A stretch of 64,000 bases of DNA from Ancylobacter defluvii (GTDB lineage: Bacteria; Pseudomonadota; Alphaproteobacteria; Rhizobiales; Xanthobacteraceae), in assembly GCF_018390605.1 (NCBI RefSeq), contig NZ_JAHBGD010000028.1:62001-126000 (forward strand). The letters run 5' to 3'. Positions 55,727 to 64,000 of the stretch are shown here, one piece after another. Under the pieces are notes generated by a model. The model was not told the DNA's origin. It saw only the letters and a program-made list of their open reading frames with translations, and did not search any database. Each line of letters opens with the position of its first letter. Position 1 is the stretch's first letter. Both the position numbers and the translations under genes were made by a program.

Positions 55727-56560
55727 ATGTCATCGCTCGCCCGCCGTCGCACCACCGATTACGCCGTCAAGGCGATCTCGACCGGCTTCGCCGCCCTTTC
55801 GCTTGTCCTGCTCGCCTGGATCCTGTGGACGCTGCTCTCCCGCGGCCTGCCGGCGCTCGGTCCGCACGTCTTCACCAATATCACCGCGCCGCCTGGCGCC
55901 GGCGGCGGCCTGCTCAACGCCATTGTCGGCTCGCTGATCCAGATCGGCGTCGCGCTGGTGATCGGCACGCCGATCGGCCTGATGTGCGGTACCTTCCTCG
56001 CAGAAAACGGCCGCGGCACCCAGATCGGCAATGTGGTGCGCTTCGTCAACGACGTGCTGCTGTCGGCGCCGTCGATCCTGATCGGTCTGTTCGTCTACCA
56101 GCTGCTTGTGGTGCCGTTCGGCGGCTTCTCCGGCTGGGCGGGGTCGATCGCCCTGGCGATCCTGGTGATCCCGGTGGTGGTGCGCACCACCGAGGACATG
56201 CTGGCGCTGGTGCCGATCGGCCTGCGCGAAGCGGCCTTCGCGCTTGGCGCGCCGCAGTGGAAGGTTGTGACCTTCATCACCTGGCGCGCTGCCCGCGCCG
56301 GCATCGTCACCGGCATCCTGCTGGCGCTGGCGCGCGCCGCTGGCGAGACGGCGCCGCTGCTGTTCACCTCGCTTGGCAATAATGGCTGGTCGCTGAACAT
56401 GTCGGCGCCCATGGCGTCGCTGCCGATCGCCATCTATCAATACGCCGCCAGCCCCTTCGAGGATTGGGTCGCCCTTGCCTGGGCCGGCGCCCTCATCATC
56501 ACCGTCGGGGTGCTGACCCTGAACGTCCTGTCCCGCCTGGTTCTGGCGAAGATGAAGTGA
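55727..56560 (+). CDS. pstA: Phosphate ABC transporter permease PstA
   Basis: A 277-residue inner-membrane permease. [47 protein letters not shown] is the PstA/PstC loop. It begins 13 bases after pstC and ends 7 bases before pstB. Confidence 0.96.
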
Positions 56561-56567
56561 GACGGCC

Positions 56568-57389
56568 ATGAATTTCGCACCCGATACCTCCATCGACATC
56601 GCTTCCGCCGTCAACCGCGCCACCGCGCCGTCCGCACAGCCGAAGCTCAAGGTCGAGAAGCTGAATTTCTACTACGGCGACAATCATGCGCTGAAGAACA
56701 TCAATTTCGAAATTCCCGAGAAGCGCGTCACCGCGATGATCGGGCCCTCGGGCTGCGGCAAGTCCACGCTGCTGCGCATCTTCAACCGCATGTACCAGCT
56801 CTATCCGGGCCAGCGCGCGGAAGGGAAGATCCTGTTCGACGGCGGCGACCTGCTGTCGAAGGATCTCGACTCCACCGTCGTGCGCTCGCGCATCGGCATG
56901 GTGTTCCAGAAGCCCACGCCGTTCCCGATGTCGATCTACGACAACATCGCCTTCGGCGTGAAGCTGCATGAGAGCCTCAGCAAGGCGCAGATGGACGAGC
57001 GGGTGGAGTGGTGCCTGCGCAAGGCCGCCATCTGGGAGGAGACCAAGGACCGCCTGCACACCTCGGCGCTCGGCATGTCCGGCGGCCAGCAGCAGCGCCT
57101 GTGCATCGCCCGCACCATCGCGGTACGTCCGGAGGTGATCCTGCTCGACGAGCCCACCTCGGCGCTCGATCCGATCTCGACCTCGAAGATCGAGGACCTG
57201 ATCGACGAACTGAAGCAGGAATTCACCATCGTCATCGTGACGCACAACATGCAGCAGGCCGCCCGCTGCGCCGACATCACCTCGTTCTTCTATCTAGGCG
57301 AGCTGATCGAGGTGAATGCGTCCAACGAGATCTTCACCAATCCGCGCGAGGCGCGCACCCGCGACTACATCACCGGCCGCTTCGGCTGA
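56568..57389 (+). CDS. pstB: Phosphate ABC transporter ATPase PstB
   Basis: A 273-residue ATP-binding subunit: Walker [10 protein letters not shown], signature [16 protein letters not shown], Walker [17 protein letters not shown], with the PstB-typical [15 protein letters not shown]. It powers PstCA and, with PhoU, couples transport to PhoR signalling. Confidence 0.97.
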
Positions 57390-57415
57390 GTGGCGACGGG
57401 AAAGAGGACCAGTCC

Positions 57416-58132
57416 ATGCCCTCCGAACATATCGTCTCGTCCTTCGATACCGATCTCAAGGAGATCAGCCGCCGCGTGGTGGAGATGGGTGGCCAGGCCG
57501 AGCAGTTGGTCGCCGATTCCGTGCAGTCGCTGGTCAAGCGCGACACCGAGCTGGCGCAGAAGGTGATCGTGCTGGACGGGCCCATCGACCTGCTCCAGCG
57601 CGAGATCGAGGAAAAGTCGGTGCTCACCATCGCCCGTCGCCAGCCGCTGGCCGGCGATCTGCGCGAGATCGTGGCGGCGATGCGCGTCGCCAACGATCTG
57701 GAGCGCATCGGCGACCTCGCCAAGAATACCTCCAAGCGGGTGCTGGCGCTCACCGGCGAGTTCCATCCGCAGAAGCTGGTGCGCGGCGTCGAGCATATGT
57801 CGAGCATGGTGCTGGAGCAGCTGAAGGAGGTGCTCGACGCCTATGCCAGCCGCGAGGACGCCCGCGCCATCGAGGTGTGGAAGCGCGACGGCGAGATCGA
57901 CGTGCTCTACACCTCGCTGTTCCGCGAACTCCTCACCTATATGATGGAGGATCCGCGCAACATCTCGCTGTGCACGCATCTGTTGTTCTGCGCCAAGAAC
58001 ATCGAACGCATCGGCGACCACGCCACCAATATCGCCGAGACCGTGCATTACCTCGCGACCGGCCAGTTGCTCACCGAAGAGCGGCCGAAGCAGGATACCA
58101 CCAGCCTGACCACGGTTCCGTTCCCGTCCTGA
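57416..58132 (+). CDS. phoU: Phosphate signalling regulator PhoU
   Basis: A 238-residue all-helical protein with two PhoU repeats; EIVAAMRVANDLERIGDLAKNTSKR and HLLFCAKNIERIGDHATNIAE contain the E/D-x-x-x-D metal motifs. It links PstB to inhibition of PhoR under phosphate plenty. The ATG follows AAAGAGGA; pstB ends 26 bases upstream. Confidence 0.96.
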   Translation: MPSEHIVSSFDTDLKEISRRVVEMGGQAEQLVADSVQSLVKRDTELAQKVIVLDGPIDLLQREIEEKSVLTIARRQPLAGDLREIVAAMRVANDLERIGDLAKNTSKRVLALTGEFHPQKLVRGVEHMSSMVLEQLKEVLDAYASREDARAIEVWKRDGEIDVLYTSLFRELLTYMMEDPRNISLCTHLLFCAKNIERIGDHATNIAETVHYLATGQLLTEERPKQDTTSLTTVPFPS

Positions 58133-58176
58133 GGCGGGCCGGATCGCGGTTACGGATCATTCGCACGGGAAAAGCG

Positions 58177-58878
58177 ATGCCGACCAATATTCTCATCGTC
58201 GAGGACGAGGAGCCGCTCACCCTGTTGCTGCGCTACAACCTCGAATCCGAAGGCTATTCGGTGGAGAGCGTGGCGCGCGGCGACGAAGCGGAGACGCGGC
58301 TGCGCGAGAAGGTGCCGGATCTTCTGTTGCTCGACTGGATGCTTCCGGGCCTGTCCGGCATCGAGCTGTGCCGGCGCCTGCGGGCCCGGCCGGAAACCGA
58401 GCGCATGCCGATCCTCATGCTCACCGCCCGCGGCGAGGAGACCGAGCGCGTGCGCGGCCTCGCCACCGGGGCGGATGATTATGTGGTGAAGCCGTTCTCG
58501 GTGCCGGAGCTGGTCGCCCGCGTGCGCGCCCTGCTGCGCCGCGCCAAGCCGGACCACATCTCGACGCTGCTGCGGGCCGGCGACATCGAGCTGGACCGCG
58601 AGACCAAGCGGGTGCACCGCTCCGGCCGCGAGCTGCATCTCGGCCCCACCGAGTTCCGGCTGCTGGAATTCCTCATGCAGTCGCCGGGCCGGGTCTATTC
58701 GCGCGAGCAGTTGCTCGACGGCGTCTGGGGCCAGGACGTCTATATCGACGAGCGCACGGTGGACGTGCATGTCGGCCGGCTGCGCAAGGCGCTGAACCGC
58801 CCGCGCCAGCCCGATCCGATCCGCACCGTGCGCGGCTCCGGCTATTCCTTCAACGAGATGTTCGCCCGCACCCATTGA
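58177..58878 (+). CDS. phoB: Phosphate regulon response regulator PhoB
   Basis: A 233-residue OmpR-family regulator. The receiver domain has acidic pocket EDEE and phosphoacceptor Asp53 in LLLLDWMLPG; the winged helix has LGPTEFRLLEFLMQSPGRVYSREQLLD and RTVDVHVGRLRKAL. It binds PHO boxes such as the one before pstS. It ends the operon before a strong terminator. Confidence 0.97.
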   Translation: MPTNILIVEDEEPLTLLLRYNLESEGYSVESVARGDEAETRLREKVPDLLLLDWMLPGLSGIELCRRLRARPETERMPILMLTARGEETERVRGLATGADDYVVKPFSVPELVARVRALLRRAKPDHISTLLRAGDIELDRETKRVHRSGRELHLGPTEFRLLEFLMQSPGRVYSREQLLDGVWGQDVYIDERTVDVHVGRLRKALNRPRQPDPIRTVRGSGYSFNEMFARTH

Positions 58879-58914
58879 GGCGGCCCAGCCGCAGAGGGCA
58901 CGGAGCGTGGAAAG

Positions 58915-58946
58915 AAATCCGCCGGCGCGTGAGCCGGCGGATTTTT
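58915..58946. terminator. Bidirectional terminator between phoB and the hydrolase gene
   Basis: A perfect 12-bp stem (arms 58915-58926 and 58933-58944, each beginning or ending AAATCC/GGATTT) has a T-run after it on the + strand, and on the other strand GGATTTCTTT follows. It separates the pho operon from the convergent hydrolase. Confidence 0.9.
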
Positions 58947-58970
58947 CGTGTCACGGCTTCGGGTCTTGCC

Positions 58971-60107
58971 TCACGGCTTGGGAAACGCCAGCGGCGGCGG
59001 CGTCAGGTTCGGCTTCAGCGGCGCGGTGGCCAGCGTCTTGGCGTCGAGGTCGAAGCTCATCAGATCGACCCCGCGCAGCACCTGGTCATCATAGGTCTTC
59101 ACGTAATAGCGCCGGTTCTTGAGATCGGCGACCGACGACCACTGGGTGTATTCCATGTCGGCGGTGTTGCCGGCTTCCGGCTTGATGAAGCCGACGGGGA
59201 TGTCGAAATTGTTGAGGATGTGCTCGGCGACGCGCACGCTCTCCTCGCCGCTCGGCTTCTTCTCCGCCGACATCGCATAGCCGAGCGCGCGGATCAGCCG
59301 CGAGGGCGGCGTCGGGTCGCCGGGAATGCCGAGCAGTCCCGAGCCCTGGCCGAAGGAGGAGATGGCCTGGCCGTTCACCGTGATGTCCGGGGCGTTGACC
59401 GGCGAGATCTTCACATAGTTCTTCAGGTTGGTCAGGTGCCAGCTGAACTCCGGCGCATTGGTCATCACCCCGAACGGGTTGTCATAGACCTTGAGCACCC
59501 CGCCCACCGGCTCGATCACCAGCGAGGCGCCGGTCTCGTCGTGCAGCGTGTAGTGAAACGGCGGCGTGATGCCCATTTGCGGCTGGGCGACATCGACGAT
59601 CGAAATGCCTGAGATCGCCGCCTTCACCTCGGCCACGGTGGCGAAATTGGTCAGCGCCCAGGTCAGGAAGTCCCACGGCGCCATCGCGGTCTTCGGGTCG
59701 GCCTTGGCCGGGTCGGCATAGCCGGCATAGTCCGGGAAATACAGGATGCCGCCCGCCAGCCCCTTCTCGTTCATGCCGTCGGTCAGCACCGGCAGGCCGA
59801 AGGCGTTGAGGCCGACGGCGGCGTATTTTGCCGTCCATTCGATGCCGGGCTTGCCGCCGGGGCCGGTGCCGGCCAGCGCGAATTGGCGGGGGATTACCAT
59901 CATGTCGGAGGCGAGCTCGAAGCCGAATTCCATGGTGCGGCCATAGACATAGGCGCCATCGGAGGTGCCGAGCAGGAAGCTGGTGCAGGCCTGTGCCGGC
60001 GGGCCGAAAGCCAGCCCCAACGCAAGGGCAAGGGTGGCGCCAAGGCGGGCGGTCGGCGCGGAGCGGCGGCTTGCCGATGCTGAACGTTTTGATTTTGCCG
60101 CGAACAT
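58971..60107 (-). CDS. Secreted choloylglycine hydrolase / penicillin V acylase family protein
   Basis: A 378-residue Ntn-hydrolase of the linear amide C-N hydrolase family. A signal sequence ends at AQA (residue 40); the next residue, Cys41, begins CTSFLLGTSDGAYVYGRTMEF and would become the catalytic N-terminal cysteine after cleavage. LTDGMNEKGLAGGILYFPDY and the Asn-containing NPFGVMTNAPEF are further active-site regions. Known members hydrolyse bile salts, penicillin V or acyl-homoserine lactones; the substrate here is unknown. AAGGA lies about nine bases before the ATG. Confidence 0.88.
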   Translation of the reverse strand: MFAAKSKRSASASRRSAPTARLGATLALALGLAFGPPAQACTSFLLGTSDGAYVYGRTMEFGFELASDMMVIPRQFALAGTGPGGKPGIEWTAKYAAVGLNAFGLPVLTDGMNEKGLAGGILYFPDYAGYADPAKADPKTAMAPWDFLTWALTNFATVAEVKAAISGISIVDVAQPQMGITPPFHYTLHDETGASLVIEPVGGVLKVYDNPFGVMTNAPEFSWHLTNLKNYVKISPVNAPDITVNGQAISSFGQGSGLLGIPGDPTPPSRLIRALGYAMSAEKKPSGEESVRVAEHILNNFDIPVGFIKPEAGNTADMEYTQWSSVADLKNRRYYVKTYDDQVLRGVDLMSFDLDAKTLATAPLKPNLTPPPLAFPKP

Positions 60108-60327
60108 CGCCCGAATCCTTTGCTATATTTTGAGGGTTCCAGCCTAAGGCAGATTCGGCCGGCGGCAAGCGAAGTCGGGCAGGGGCGCACCGCATCGGCG
60201 TCTGCGCCGGGACCTGTAGCGGCGCCCGTTTTTTCACCGTGCCGCTTTTCTACTCCTGCGTCGTCGACACGCGCGCGGCGTGTCCGCATAATACGATCCT
60301 CTCGGCGCAGGGACGGATCGCTTCGGC

Positions 60328-61041
60328 ATGGCAGGGCAGCACGACGACCACGATCACGATGATCATGCGCATCACGATCACCCGCATCACCATTTCCACC
60401 GCATCCATTCCGAGGCGGCCGACGCGCTGCTGATGTCGATCGCCGACATCGAGATCAGCGCCCGCGTCAAGGCATTGGAGGAACTGCTCACCCTGAAGGG
60501 GCTGGTCGATCCGGCCGCGCTCGATGCGGTGGTGGATCTCTATGAGAACCAGATCGGCCCGAAGAACGGCGCCCGGGTGATCGCCCGCGCCTGGAGCGAT
60601 CCGGCCTACAAGAAGTGGCTGCTCGAGGATCCCAACGCCGCCATTGCCGATCTCGGCTTCACCGGCGCGCAGGGCGAGAACATGGTGGCGCTGGAGAACA
60701 CCGACGGCGTGCACAATGTCGTCGTCTGCACCCTGTGCTCCTGCTATCCGTGGCCGGTGCTGGGCCTGCCGCCGGTCTGGTACAAGAGCATGCCCTACCG
60801 CACCCGCATCGTGCGCGATCCGCGCTCGGTGCTGGCCGAATTCGGCACCGTGCTGCCGGACACCACCGAAATCCGCGTCTGGGACAGCAATTCGGAAGTC
60901 CGCTACCTCGTCGTCCCCCGCCGCCCGGAGGGCACGCAGGGCATGGACGAGGCGGCGCTCGCCGGCCTCGTCACCCGCGACAGCATGATCGGCGTCACCG
61001 AGGCGCTCACACCGGAGCCGGCCGCAGAGGGTGCGCCATGA
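60328..61041 (+). CDS. nthA: Nitrile hydratase alpha subunit, cobalt type, with His-rich N-terminus
   Basis: A 237-residue catalytic subunit. [10 protein letters not shown] holds Cys134, Cys137, Ser138 and Cys139, the claw-setting metal motif; Thr and Tyr in this motif mark the low-spin cobalt type rather than the iron type. [38 protein letters not shown] and VTRDSMIGV are alpha-subunit signatures. Residues 5-27 contain 12 His and six Asp, an unusual metal-binding-looking extension. It converts nitriles to amides. Thiocyanate hydrolase gamma subunits share the same architecture and cannot be excluded. Its stop overlaps the next start (ATGA). Confidence 0.88.
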
Positions 61042-61382
61042 ACTCGGTGCATGATTGCGGTGGTTTCGACGGATTCGGCCGGGTGGTGCCGGAGGACTAT
61101 GACGGGCGCGAGCCGGTGTTCAAGGAGGAGTGGGAGCGACGCATGTGCGGGCTGTTCATGATCACCATCGGCGCGCACTACTCCGACGACGAATTCCGCC
61201 AGTCGCGCGAGCGGCTGGAGCCGGTGAAGTACCTCACCCGCCCCTATTACGAGCAATGGTGGTTCGCGGTGGCGCGGCTGATGATGGAGAAGGGCCTGCT
61301 GACGCCGGAGGAATTCGCCCGGCACCTTGCCGCCGGACGTGCCGCCGCCGGCAATGCCGATATTCTTGCCGGGGACGCCTGA
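61038..61382 (+). CDS. Nitrile hydratase beta subunit, N-terminal half as separate gene
   Basis: A 114-residue protein equal to the N-terminal domain of nitrile hydratase beta: [16 protein letters not shown] at the start (usual form MNG-IHDMGG--GFG-V), [15 protein letters not shown], and [25 protein letters not shown]. It ends with a stop where the ordinary beta subunit continues. The next gene begins at the same base (TGATG). This two-gene beta matches the layout of toyocamycin nitrile hydratase and thiocyanate hydrolase, known three-subunit relatives. Confidence 0.85.
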
Positions 61383-61747
61383 TGCTCAGCGCCGCCGACA
61401 TTCTCGATCTGCTGAAGACCGGCGCCACCACCAGGGTCGACGACCCCTCGCGCCTCCCGGCCTTCGCCCCCGGCGATCCGGTCCTCACCCGCACGCTCAG
61501 CCCGCTCACGCATACGCGGCTGCCGCGCTATTGCCGCGGCAAGCGCGGCGTGGTGGTGAAGGTGCACGGCCTCTACGCCTTGCCGGACGTCCGCGCCATC
61601 GGCGACGAGGACACCCGCGAACATTGCTATGCCGTGCGCTTCTCCATGCGCGAATTATGGGGCCCGCAGGGGTCGCCGGCCGACAGCCTCACCATCGATC
61701 TGTGGGACAGCTACCTGCTGCCGGCCGGGGCGGAGGCGACGCCATGA
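61382..61747 (+). CDS. Nitrile hydratase beta subunit, C-terminal half as separate gene
   Basis: A 121-residue protein equal to the C-terminal, SH3-like half of nitrile hydratase beta: FAPGDPVLTRTLSPLTHTRLPRYCRGKRGVV, then HCYAVRFSMRELWG and LTIDLWDSYLLPA. The HTRLPRY-RGK Arg residues contact the alpha-subunit metal site in the family. The ATG shares one base with the previous stop, and its stop overlaps the next start (ATGA). A frameshift reading is unlikely: both halves have proper starts, and a linker-like N-terminus is present. Confidence 0.85.
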   Translation: MLSAADILDLLKTGATTRVDDPSRLPAFAPGDPVLTRTLSPLTHTRLPRYCRGKRGVVVKVHGLYALPDVRAIGDEDTREHCYAVRFSMRELWGPQGSPADSLTIDLWDSYLLPAGAEATP

Positions 61748-62079
61748 CCGAGTTGCTGCCCGATCTCGACCGGCCGAAGGCCTTTGCGGCGCCATGGGAG
61801 GCGCAGGCCTTCGCGCTGGTGCTGAAGCTGCACGAGCGTGGCCTGTTCGAATGGCCGGAATTCGCCGCCCGCCTCAGCGCCGAGATCCACGCCCACCCGG
61901 ACCAGCCCTATTACGTCTGCTGGCACGAGGCGGCGGTGGAGCTGCTGGTCGCCAAGGGGTTGGTGGAGGCATCGGCCTTCCTCGACCAGGCCCGCGCCGT
62001 GGTGCGGTTTCGCGCCTCCGACCATCACCACGTCGCCCACACCACCCCGATCGCCGTCGATCCGGCGCGGGGCGGCTGA
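61744..62079 (+). CDS. Nitrile hydratase accessory (activator) protein
   Basis: A 111-residue protein similar to beta N-terminal domains and annotated in the family as the nitrile hydratase accessory protein: KAFAAPWEAQAFALVLKLHERGLFEWPEFAARLSAEI, then PYYVCWHEAAVELLVAKGLVEA. Such proteins load or oxidise the alpha-subunit metal site by a subunit exchange. It ends the four-gene operon. The C-terminal segment ASDHHHVAH is His-rich, as in other cobalt-delivery partners; this is inference. Confidence 0.85.
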   Translation: MTELLPDLDRPKAFAAPWEAQAFALVLKLHERGLFEWPEFAARLSAEIHAHPDQPYYVCWHEAAVELLVAKGLVEASAFLDQARAVVRFRASDHHHVAHTTPIAVDPARGG

Positions 62080-62136
62080 GCGGGTCCGGCTCGGGCCGGC
62101 TGGTGCCGACGAGGTTGCCGAGGCCGGCCGCCATCT

Positions 62137-62159
62137 CCCTCTCCCCGAGGGGGAGAGGG
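62137..62159. repeat. REP-like palindrome after the nitrile hydratase operon
   Basis: CCCTCTCCCC, loop GAG, GGGGAGAGGG, followed by GGGGTGAAGGG, the same flank as at 26291. It lies between convergent stops. Confidence 0.85.
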
Positions 62160-62212
62160 GCGGGGTGAAGGGGGCGACGCGACTCGAAAGGGAGCGGGCA
62201 ATCGCGGCACGC

Positions 62213-62977
62213 TCAGGTGCGGGTGATCGATAGCCCGCCATCCACCAGATGCGCGGTGCCGGAGACGAAGGACGAATCGTCCGAGGCGAGATAGAGCACC
62301 GAGCGCGCCAGTTCCTCCGGCTGCGCCACCCGCTTCAGCGCGTGCAGGCCGGTGACGAAGCTCTGCGCCTCCGGCGTGCCATTGGCCTCGCGGAACATCT
62401 CGGTTTCCACCGCGCCGGGCAGCACCGCGTTCACCCTTATTCCCTTCGGCCCATATTCGGCGGCCAGCGCCTGGGTCAGGCCGATCAGCCCGGATTTCGA
62501 GGCGGCATAGGCGGCAAGGCCGGGAAACGCCGTCGAATAGCCGACAAAGGTCGAGGTGAAGATCACCGAGCCGCCGCCGGTCTTCAGCATCGCGGCGATC
62601 TGGTGCTTGGCGCCGAGAAAGGCGCCGGTGAGGTTCACCGCCAGCGTGTCGGCCCAGCCCTGCGCTGATATCTCGGTGCTGGGGCCGCTGGCGCCGAGCG
62701 TGCCGGCATTGTTGAAGGCGATATCGAGCCGGCCGAAGCGCTCCACCGCCAGCGCCACCAGCGCGCTCGCATAATCCTCGTCCTTCACGTCGCCGGCCAG
62801 TGCCGCCGCCGCGCCGCCGGCTTGGGCGATCTCGGCCACCAGCGTGTCGAGCTCGGCCTGCCGGCGGGCACCGACCACCACCTTCGCGCCTTCGCGGGCG
62901 AACAATTCGGCGGTGGCGCGGCCGATGCCGGCGCTGGCGCCGGTGATCAGCGCGACTTTTCCATCCAGACGTCCCAT
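62213..62977 (-). CDS. Short-chain dehydrogenase/reductase
   Basis: A 254-residue classical SDR: TGASAGIG (12-19), NNAG, the YAASK catalytic pair, and a C-terminal VSGTAHLVDGGLSITR. NADPH preference is suggested by RR in VGARRQAEL. Substrate unknown. The ATG at 62977 gives MGRLDGKVALITG; upstream residues are not SDR-like. It diverges from the LysR gene with an operator-like palindrome between them. Confidence 0.92.
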   Translation of the reverse strand: MGRLDGKVALITGASAGIGRATAELFAREGAKVVVGARRQAELDTLVAEIAQAGGAAAALAGDVKDEDYASALVALAVERFGRLDIAFNNAGTLGASGPSTEISAQGWADTLAVNLTGAFLGAKHQIAAMLKTGGGSVIFTSTFVGYSTAFPGLAAYAASKSGLIGLTQALAAEYGPKGIRVNAVLPGAVETEMFREANGTPEAQSFVTGLHALKRVAQPEELARSVLYLASDDSSFVSGTAHLVDGGLSITRT

Positions 62978-63033
62978 CGATATTCTCCTGGGTCTGCCGG
63001 CCGCCGCGCATTCCGGGGCGGCCATGGCTGTGT

Positions 63034-63048
63034 GACAACGTGGTTGTC
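63034..63048. promoter_or_regulatory. Palindrome between the SDR and lysR genes, candidate operator
   Basis: GACAAC-GTG-GTTGTC is a perfect 6-bp inverted repeat with a 3-bp centre, in the divergent promoter region, where LysR regulators bind. It is not exactly the T-N11-A form. Confidence 0.5.
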
Positions 63049-63132
63049 GTCCTGTTGCCGGGAAGTATGGCGATGCCGGCGCGTTCGGATTAGCCTGCGA
63101 TCGGTGGAACTCATGTCCGGAAAATCCGAACG

Positions 63133-64000
63133 ATGAAGCTCGACGGCATCGCCGCCTTCGTCGCCATCGCCGAGGCGGGCTCGATCAGCGAGGCCGCCCG
63201 GCGGCTGCGGCTGTCGAAATCGGTGGTCAGCGACCGGCTCAGGGAGCTGGAGCACCGGCTCGGCGCCAGCCTGATTCACCGCTCCACCCGCAAATTGTCG
63301 CTGACCGAGGATGGCCTGGCGTTCCTGGAGCGGGCGTCGGGGGCGCTGCGCGAGCTCGATGCCGCCGCCGCCGCGCTGGCCGAGCGGCGCAGCACCCTGG
63401 CCGGGCCGCTGCGGCTGTCGGCGCCGGTCACCTTCAGCCGGCTGCATCTCGGCCCGGCGCTCTATCCCTTCCTGGCCCGTCATCCGCAGATCGAGCTCAC
63501 CCTCGATCTCGACGACCGCCGCATCGACGCCCATTCGGAAGGCTATGACGGGGTGGTCCGGCACGGGCCGCTCACCGATAGCCGGCTCATCGCCTGGCGG
63601 CTCGCCCGCAGCCGGCGGGTGCTGGTCGCCTCGCCGGATTATCTCGCCCGCCACGGCACCCCGTCGGGCCTTGCCGAGCTGGAGGCCCATCGCGGCATCC
63701 TCTACACCGGCCGCGGCATTGCCGATTGGCGCTTCCTCACCGAAGGCGGCGCGGTGCAGCTGCGCGCCCCGGCGGCGCTGCGGGTGAACAATGGCGAGCT
63801 GATGCGCGACGCTGCCATTGCCGGCCTCGGCATCGCGCTGCTGCCCCTGTTCATCGCCGGCCCGCCGCTCAAGGCGGGCACGCTGGTCGCCATCGAGGTC
63901 GGCGCCGCCACCGAGCCGGAATTCATCTATGTCGCGCATCCGGAGGGCCGCCGCCCGTCGGCGAAGCTGCGGGCGCTGACCGACTGGCTGCGCCAGGCCT
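63133..64000 (+). CDS. LysR-family transcriptional regulator, 3' end beyond the window
   Basis: At least 289 residues are visible. The N-terminal helix-turn-helix is FVAIAEAGSISEAARRLRLSKSVVSDRLRELEHRLGASLIHR, followed by the substrate-binding domain with RLSAPVTFSRLHLGPALYPFL. It diverges from the SDR gene and probably controls it. The frame runs off the right edge without a stop. Confidence 0.93.
   Translation, partial: MKLDGIAAFVAIAEAGSISEAARRLRLSKSVVSDRLRELEHRLGASLIHRSTRKLSLTEDGLAFLERASGALRELDAAAAALAERRSTLAGPLRLSAPVTFSRLHLGPALYPFLARHPQIELTLDLDDRRIDAHSEGYDGVVRHGPLTDSRLIAWRLARSRRVLVASPDYLARHGTPSGLAELEAHRGILYTGRGIADWRFLTEGGAVQLRAPAALRVNNGELMRDAAIAGLGIALLPLFIAGPPLKAGTLVAIEVGAATEPEFIYVAHPEGRRPSAKLRALTDWLRQA

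Follow-up and report, generated by a model that had tools for sequence, protein, structure and literature searches.

Gene organization of the operon

We analyzed a 64,000-nucleotide stretch of the Ancylobacter defluvii genome (contig NZ_JAHBGD010000028.1, positions 62,001 to 126,000 of the forward strand; hereafter the window), in which four consecutive genes encode an alpha subunit of the nitrile hydratase family, the two halves of a beta subunit as separate proteins (beta-N and beta-C), and an accessory protein (Table 1). An initial annotation of this DNA had described four genes overlapping by ATGA, TGATG and ATGA, in the order alpha, beta-N, beta-C, accessory and not beta-N, beta-C, alpha, and had proposed a cobalt-type nitrile hydratase made of three polypeptides together with its accessory gene. 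The open reading frames bore out both the junctions and the order, and all four products match the expected families. Beta-N and beta-C are in different reading frames, beta-C having its own start codon, and the overlaps probably couple the translation of successive genes. An Rfam scan of window positions 56000–64000 returned nothing above the gathering scores.

Table 1. Features of the operon and its surroundings (window coordinates).
Feature	Position	Strand	Evidence or remark
Alpha subunit gene, 237 residues	60328..61041	+	His/Asp-rich N-terminal tail and NHase_alpha domain (residues 43–224)
His/Asp-rich segment, alpha residues 5–27, 12 His and 6 Asp	60340..60408	+	sequence; probably disordered
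ATGA junction, alpha/beta-N	61038..61041	+	sequence
Beta-N gene, 114 residues, N-terminal half of nitrile hydratase beta	61038..61382	+	family match, alignment
TGATG stop/start overlap, beta-N/beta-C	61380..61384	+	sequence
Beta-C gene, 121 residues, C-terminal half of beta	61382..61747	+	family match, alignment
ATGA junction, beta-C/accessory	61744..61747	+	sequence
Accessory (activator) gene, 111 residues, distant paralogue of beta-N	61744..62079	+	TIGR03889 above cut-off; clade in tree
Promoter-like match, ending 36 bases upstream of the alpha start codon	60264..60292	+	weak consensus evidence: 1 found, 0.2 expected
Choloylglycine hydrolase/penicillin V acylase-like gene	58971..60107	-	upstream of and divergent from the operon

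Family assignment and active site

Alpha matches NHase_alpha (E-value 9.4e-88) and scores 300.7 bits with TIGR01323 (cut-off 249.85), beta-N matches NHase_beta_N (6.3e-28), and beta-C matches NHase_beta_C (1.5e-28). The accessory protein scores 66.7 bits with TIGR03889 nitrile_acc (cut-off 46) and forms a clade apart from beta-N in the tree. With TIGR03888, the model of a single full-length beta, the two halves score 91.2 and 102.8 bits, below a cut-off of 152.2 that is a criterion for the two-subunit form only.

We compared the four products with the cobalt-type nitrile hydratase of Pseudomonas putida (3QXE and its mutants), whose alpha subunit is 62% identical over 192 aligned residues. The cobalt claw, VCTLCSC, occupies alpha residues 133–139 and is followed by Tyr140, Pro141 and Trp142, so that the motif CTLCSCYPW had been read correctly; P. 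putida has the same claw and Trp. In P. putida, beta is one chain; beta-N aligns to residues 1–100 of this chain (3qxe_B) and beta-C to residues 108–219, hence the break falls between the two halves of beta. As read off the printed alignments, 3QXE beta Arg52 and Glu56 correspond to Arg54 and Glu58 in beta-N, and Tyr111 of beta-C takes the place of Tyr215, whereas beta His71 is replaced by Gln73. Arg157 of the P. thermophila beta subunit aligns with Arg46 (HTR) of beta-C. Both positions are, by PDB title, targets of published mutants. In nitrile hydratases, the oxidised claw cysteines are bound by these two beta arginines. Since Arg52 corresponds to Arg54 of beta-N and Arg157 to Arg46 of beta-C, the two active-site arginines here are on separate polypeptides.

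Collectively, we consider it likely (probability about 0.86) that the operon encodes a three-subunit cobalt-type nitrile hydratase with its own activator, in support of the original proposal. We postulate that the Cys-Thr-Leu-Cys-Ser-Cys claw of alpha would bind Co(III), and that beta-N and beta-C would jointly wrap alpha as one beta chain does, with Arg54 and Arg46 supplied to the active site by the two polypeptides. The accessory protein most likely holds alpha during cobalt insertion; beta-N would then displace it, and beta-C would close the site afterwards. The mature enzyme would convert a nitrile into the amide by hydration, and a host amidase could cleave this product.

The divided beta subunit is conserved in Ancylobacter

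The initial annotation had allowed for two ways in which its reading might fail, namely a full-length beta elsewhere in the same strain or a sequencing frameshift, and neither was found. A profile search of the host genome (5.28 Mb, 29 contigs, 99.95% complete) returned one NHase_alpha match and one NHase_beta_C match, both at the operon; NHase_beta_N matched twice, at beta-N itself and at the accessory gene. Thus, no full-length beta was found elsewhere in this genome with the NHase_beta_C and NHase_beta_N profiles.

Moreover, an alpha above the cut-off is present in 8 of 30 Ancylobacter genomes, and six of these eight have alpha, beta-N, beta-C and accessory genes. Of the other two, A. radicis has alpha, a fused beta and an accessory gene, and the genome G005 has beta, alpha and accessory. 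In all six split loci, beta-N and beta-C still overlap by TGATG or ATGA. The ratio of non-synonymous to synonymous substitution rates (dN/dS) of the four genes is 0.12–0.28 in comparisons with A. sonchi and Ancylobacter sp. Lp-2, the nearest two species, and 0.29–0.53 with the more distant A. mangrovi. All four genes are under purifying selection.

Distribution of the split layout

To place the operon among its relatives, we assembled 112 alpha-bearing loci: 79 of 80 from a search biased to relatives of the window (L081, truncated, was dropped), the window itself, three further Ancylobacter loci, and 29 of 30 loci from an even sample of the phylum. Four Ancylobacter duplicates, and the window's own copy among the 30 phylum-sample loci, were removed. 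The layouts are alpha-betaN-betaC (39), alpha-beta (38), beta-alpha (21), betaN-betaC-alpha (9) and alpha-beta-beta (5), and by record title the split loci belong to Alpha- and Gammaproteobacteria and cyanobacteria. The even sample itself comprises 398 genomes, 58 of which have the enzyme in a total of 61 places: 51 with a fused beta, eight betaN-betaC-alpha and two alpha-betaN-betaC. One of these last two is the window, which leaves the alpha-betaN-betaC layout in 1 of 60 other places. Within the host's family, alpha passes the cut-off in 188 of 296 genomes, and all 27 further loci that were inspected (the best-scoring ones, none from Ancylobacter and one from a genome that is also in the phylum sample) have a fused beta.

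Split loci are therefore a minority, spread over Alpha- and Gammaproteobacteria and cyanobacteria, and Ancylobacter stands out for them among the family members examined. The rarity that the initial annotation attributed to the split is weakened by the 39 of 112 loci, and also by a public plasmid record from the cyanobacterium Gloeocapsopsis dulcis (NZ_CP119970). This record already has the same layout in the same order, nthA, two genes and an accessory gene, with the halves named only as SH3-like domain-containing proteins; unlike in the window, an isochorismatase-family gene and ABC uptake genes follow.

Several loci merit a separate mention. L024, L025, L028, L029 and L037 have two different full-length betas in tandem between alpha and accessory. 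On Agrobacterium tumefaciens plasmid pAtAF1_95 (NZ_CP124965), the split beta-N and beta-C between nthA and the accessory gene (L153, 5585–6343) occupy an interval with no entry in the plasmid gene table. We had named the betaN-betaC-alpha loci thiocyanate-type but dropped this name in favor of Arg-type, because the two alphas that were compared, from L095 and L096, reach at best 205 and 203 bits with nitrile hydratases as against at best 152 and 170 bits with thiocyanate hydrolase. On Planktothrix agardhii plasmid p1 (NZ_LR882951; L157, 2711–3964), two SH3-like genes and, after them, an 'nthA' with an Arg-type YPRM motif lie directly 3' of asnB; the nthA label may be wrong here, and a biosynthetic role is possible.

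The His/Asp-rich tail of alpha

The composition reported for alpha residues 5–27, 12 His and 6 Asp, was counted correctly. The tail has no match in solved structures, and residues 1–30 are predicted with low confidence (mean pLDDT 49, 53 and 62). Over the first 40 aligned codons it is 82–85% identical to those of the two nearest species. The tail is not tied to the split. Loci with at least four His upstream of the alpha core number 32 of 38 for the alpha-beta layout and 15 of 39 for alpha-betaN-betaC, and likewise 7 of 9 for betaN-betaC-alpha, 4 of 5 for alpha-beta-beta and 6 of 21 for beta-alpha. Each count starts from whichever upstream Met yields the most His-dense tail, a choice that biases it toward high values. 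The tail is thus a widespread family trait, with nothing linking it to the split.

Might the split enzyme nevertheless depend on the tail as a dedicated store of cobalt for loading? The density of 12 His and 6 Asp within 23 residues, the conservation in the two nearest species, and the low predicted confidence, as expected for a flexible tail, all fit such a store. By contrast, tails with at least four His are commoner with an ordinary beta (32/38) than with a split one (15/39), and one congener (G007) keeps the split yet has no His after the first upstream Met, with three His in the open frame before that Met. We therefore regard a required store as unlikely, although the tail may bind metal and may have a part in cobalt loading.

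Genomic neighborhood and alternative functions

Five annotated genes surround the operon at 56.5–63.0 kb of the window. Upstream, beyond the choloylglycine-hydrolase-like gene, are genes for an ABC ATPase, which we take to be PstB, a PhoU and a response regulator, while the downstream neighbor on the other strand is an SDR gene. The choloylglycine-hydrolase-like and ABC ATPase neighbors are shared by A. sonchi and Lp-2 (L003 and L004), and the former was not seen beside the A. radicis operon (L005). Neither in the window nor in four congeners did searches for eight catabolic or metal-uptake gene classes find any beside the operon. The host genome has 15 Amidase, 7 cobW and 4 NicO match rows (some genes are matched in pieces and fill more than one row), none of them on the contig of the window (C21). 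In the fetched flanks of split loci (one query per class, loci up to L082), relatives of urea/amide-type binding proteins occur at 15 of 36, amidases at 9 of 36 and NicO at 6 of 36. Furthermore, the three plasmid loci that were examined closely, L152 and L154 (both fused) and L153 (split), adjoin an amidase; CbtAB is near L153 and L154, and an aldoxime dehydratase gene is near L154. The neighbors of the relatives favor nitrile and amide use, against which stands the failure to find any of the eight classes beside the operon of the window or of the four congeners.

That failure would also suit an enzyme that tailors a natural product, acting on one specific nitrile and not in broad catabolism. 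Such an enzyme has a precedent in toyocamycin nitrile hydratase, ToyJKL, a three-subunit cobalt nitrile hydratase like the one proposed here. ToyJKL sits in a natural-product cluster, however, whereas no such cluster was seen among the five annotated neighbors, whose genes are of the ABC ATPase, PhoU, response-regulator, choloylglycine-hydrolase-like and SDR kinds, and some relatives of the same split build lie near the binding-protein and amidase genes counted above. A tailoring role is thus improbable.

Thiocyanate hydrolase of Thiobacillus thioparus (2DD4, 2ZZD, 3VYG), a three-subunit cobalt enzyme that acts on thiocyanate, resembles the window in having three polypeptides, a break between the same halves and a similar fold, and its solved claw subunit (gamma), like alpha, starts with HD repeats. 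Nevertheless, it is very improbable that the operon encodes this enzyme or a close cousin. The substrate position, named by the titles of PDB entries 3VYH and 3VYG through the exchanges aW116R in nitrile hydratase and R136W in thiocyanate hydrolase, is Trp142 here, not Arg; for alpha, beta-N and beta-C alike, nitrile hydratase chains give higher scores than those of thiocyanate hydrolase; and the score with TIGR03887 is 179.2 bits against a cut-off of 291.45, although none of the 398 phylum genomes passes that cut-off. The gene order, alpha first, also differs from scnBAC (beta-N, beta-C, claw subunit).

Lastly, the idea that an ordinary beta gene was broken by a recent lesion or an assembly frameshift, to which the single beta gene in 51 of 61 phylum-sample places and in A. 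radicis might point, is refuted for the genus by the same break with overlapping stop and start in six Ancylobacter genomes, the beta-N/beta-C breaks in many other taxa, the low dN/dS against the two nearest species, and the separate frames of the halves and beta-C's own start codon, unless six assemblies share one error.

Splitting, probable re-fusion and possible transfer

In our trees, the fused beta of A. radicis is nested among split relatives and is probably a natural re-fusion, an observation that is new in this analysis. When the split Ancylobacter rows were made to exclude A. radicis, with outgroups that are all split, the approximately unbiased test gave p-AU values of 0.17 and 0.096, which would not fix its exact place within the genus. 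A single clade of all split loci plus A. radicis was neither shown nor rejected (p-AU 0.094), and the beta-N tree rooted with the accessory outgroup (93 columns) left the base of the beta-N side unresolved and the direction of change undecided. In the trees, the nearest relative outside Ancylobacter is a Rhodospirillales metagenome-assembled genome (L008) with the same split, a kinship that hints at transfer.

Two further Ancylobacter loci were noted. The nitrile hydratase of G005 (L089), of the beta-alpha-accessory layout, is divergent, sits on a long branch and has WPWP directly behind its claw. A ninth NHase_alpha match in the genus (L090, G028:C14:75272-75442) scores 22.7 bits, below the cut-off, and is perhaps an NHLP-type leader peptide.

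A tentative scenario, which we find possible but doubtful, is that the split beta is the older state and that two-subunit enzymes arose by several separate fusions, one of them recent in A. radicis and readable in its DNA. If so, the accessory protein, which is related to beta-N and stands on its own, would be a relic from the time of separate halves.

Implications

Within an enzyme family of industrial use, the three-subunit nitrile hydratases appear to form a regular branch. Close species with a split and a naturally fused beta offer a ready system for the effects of joining the halves on assembly, on the need for the activator and on stability, and the role of the His-rich tail found across the family can be tested by its removal.
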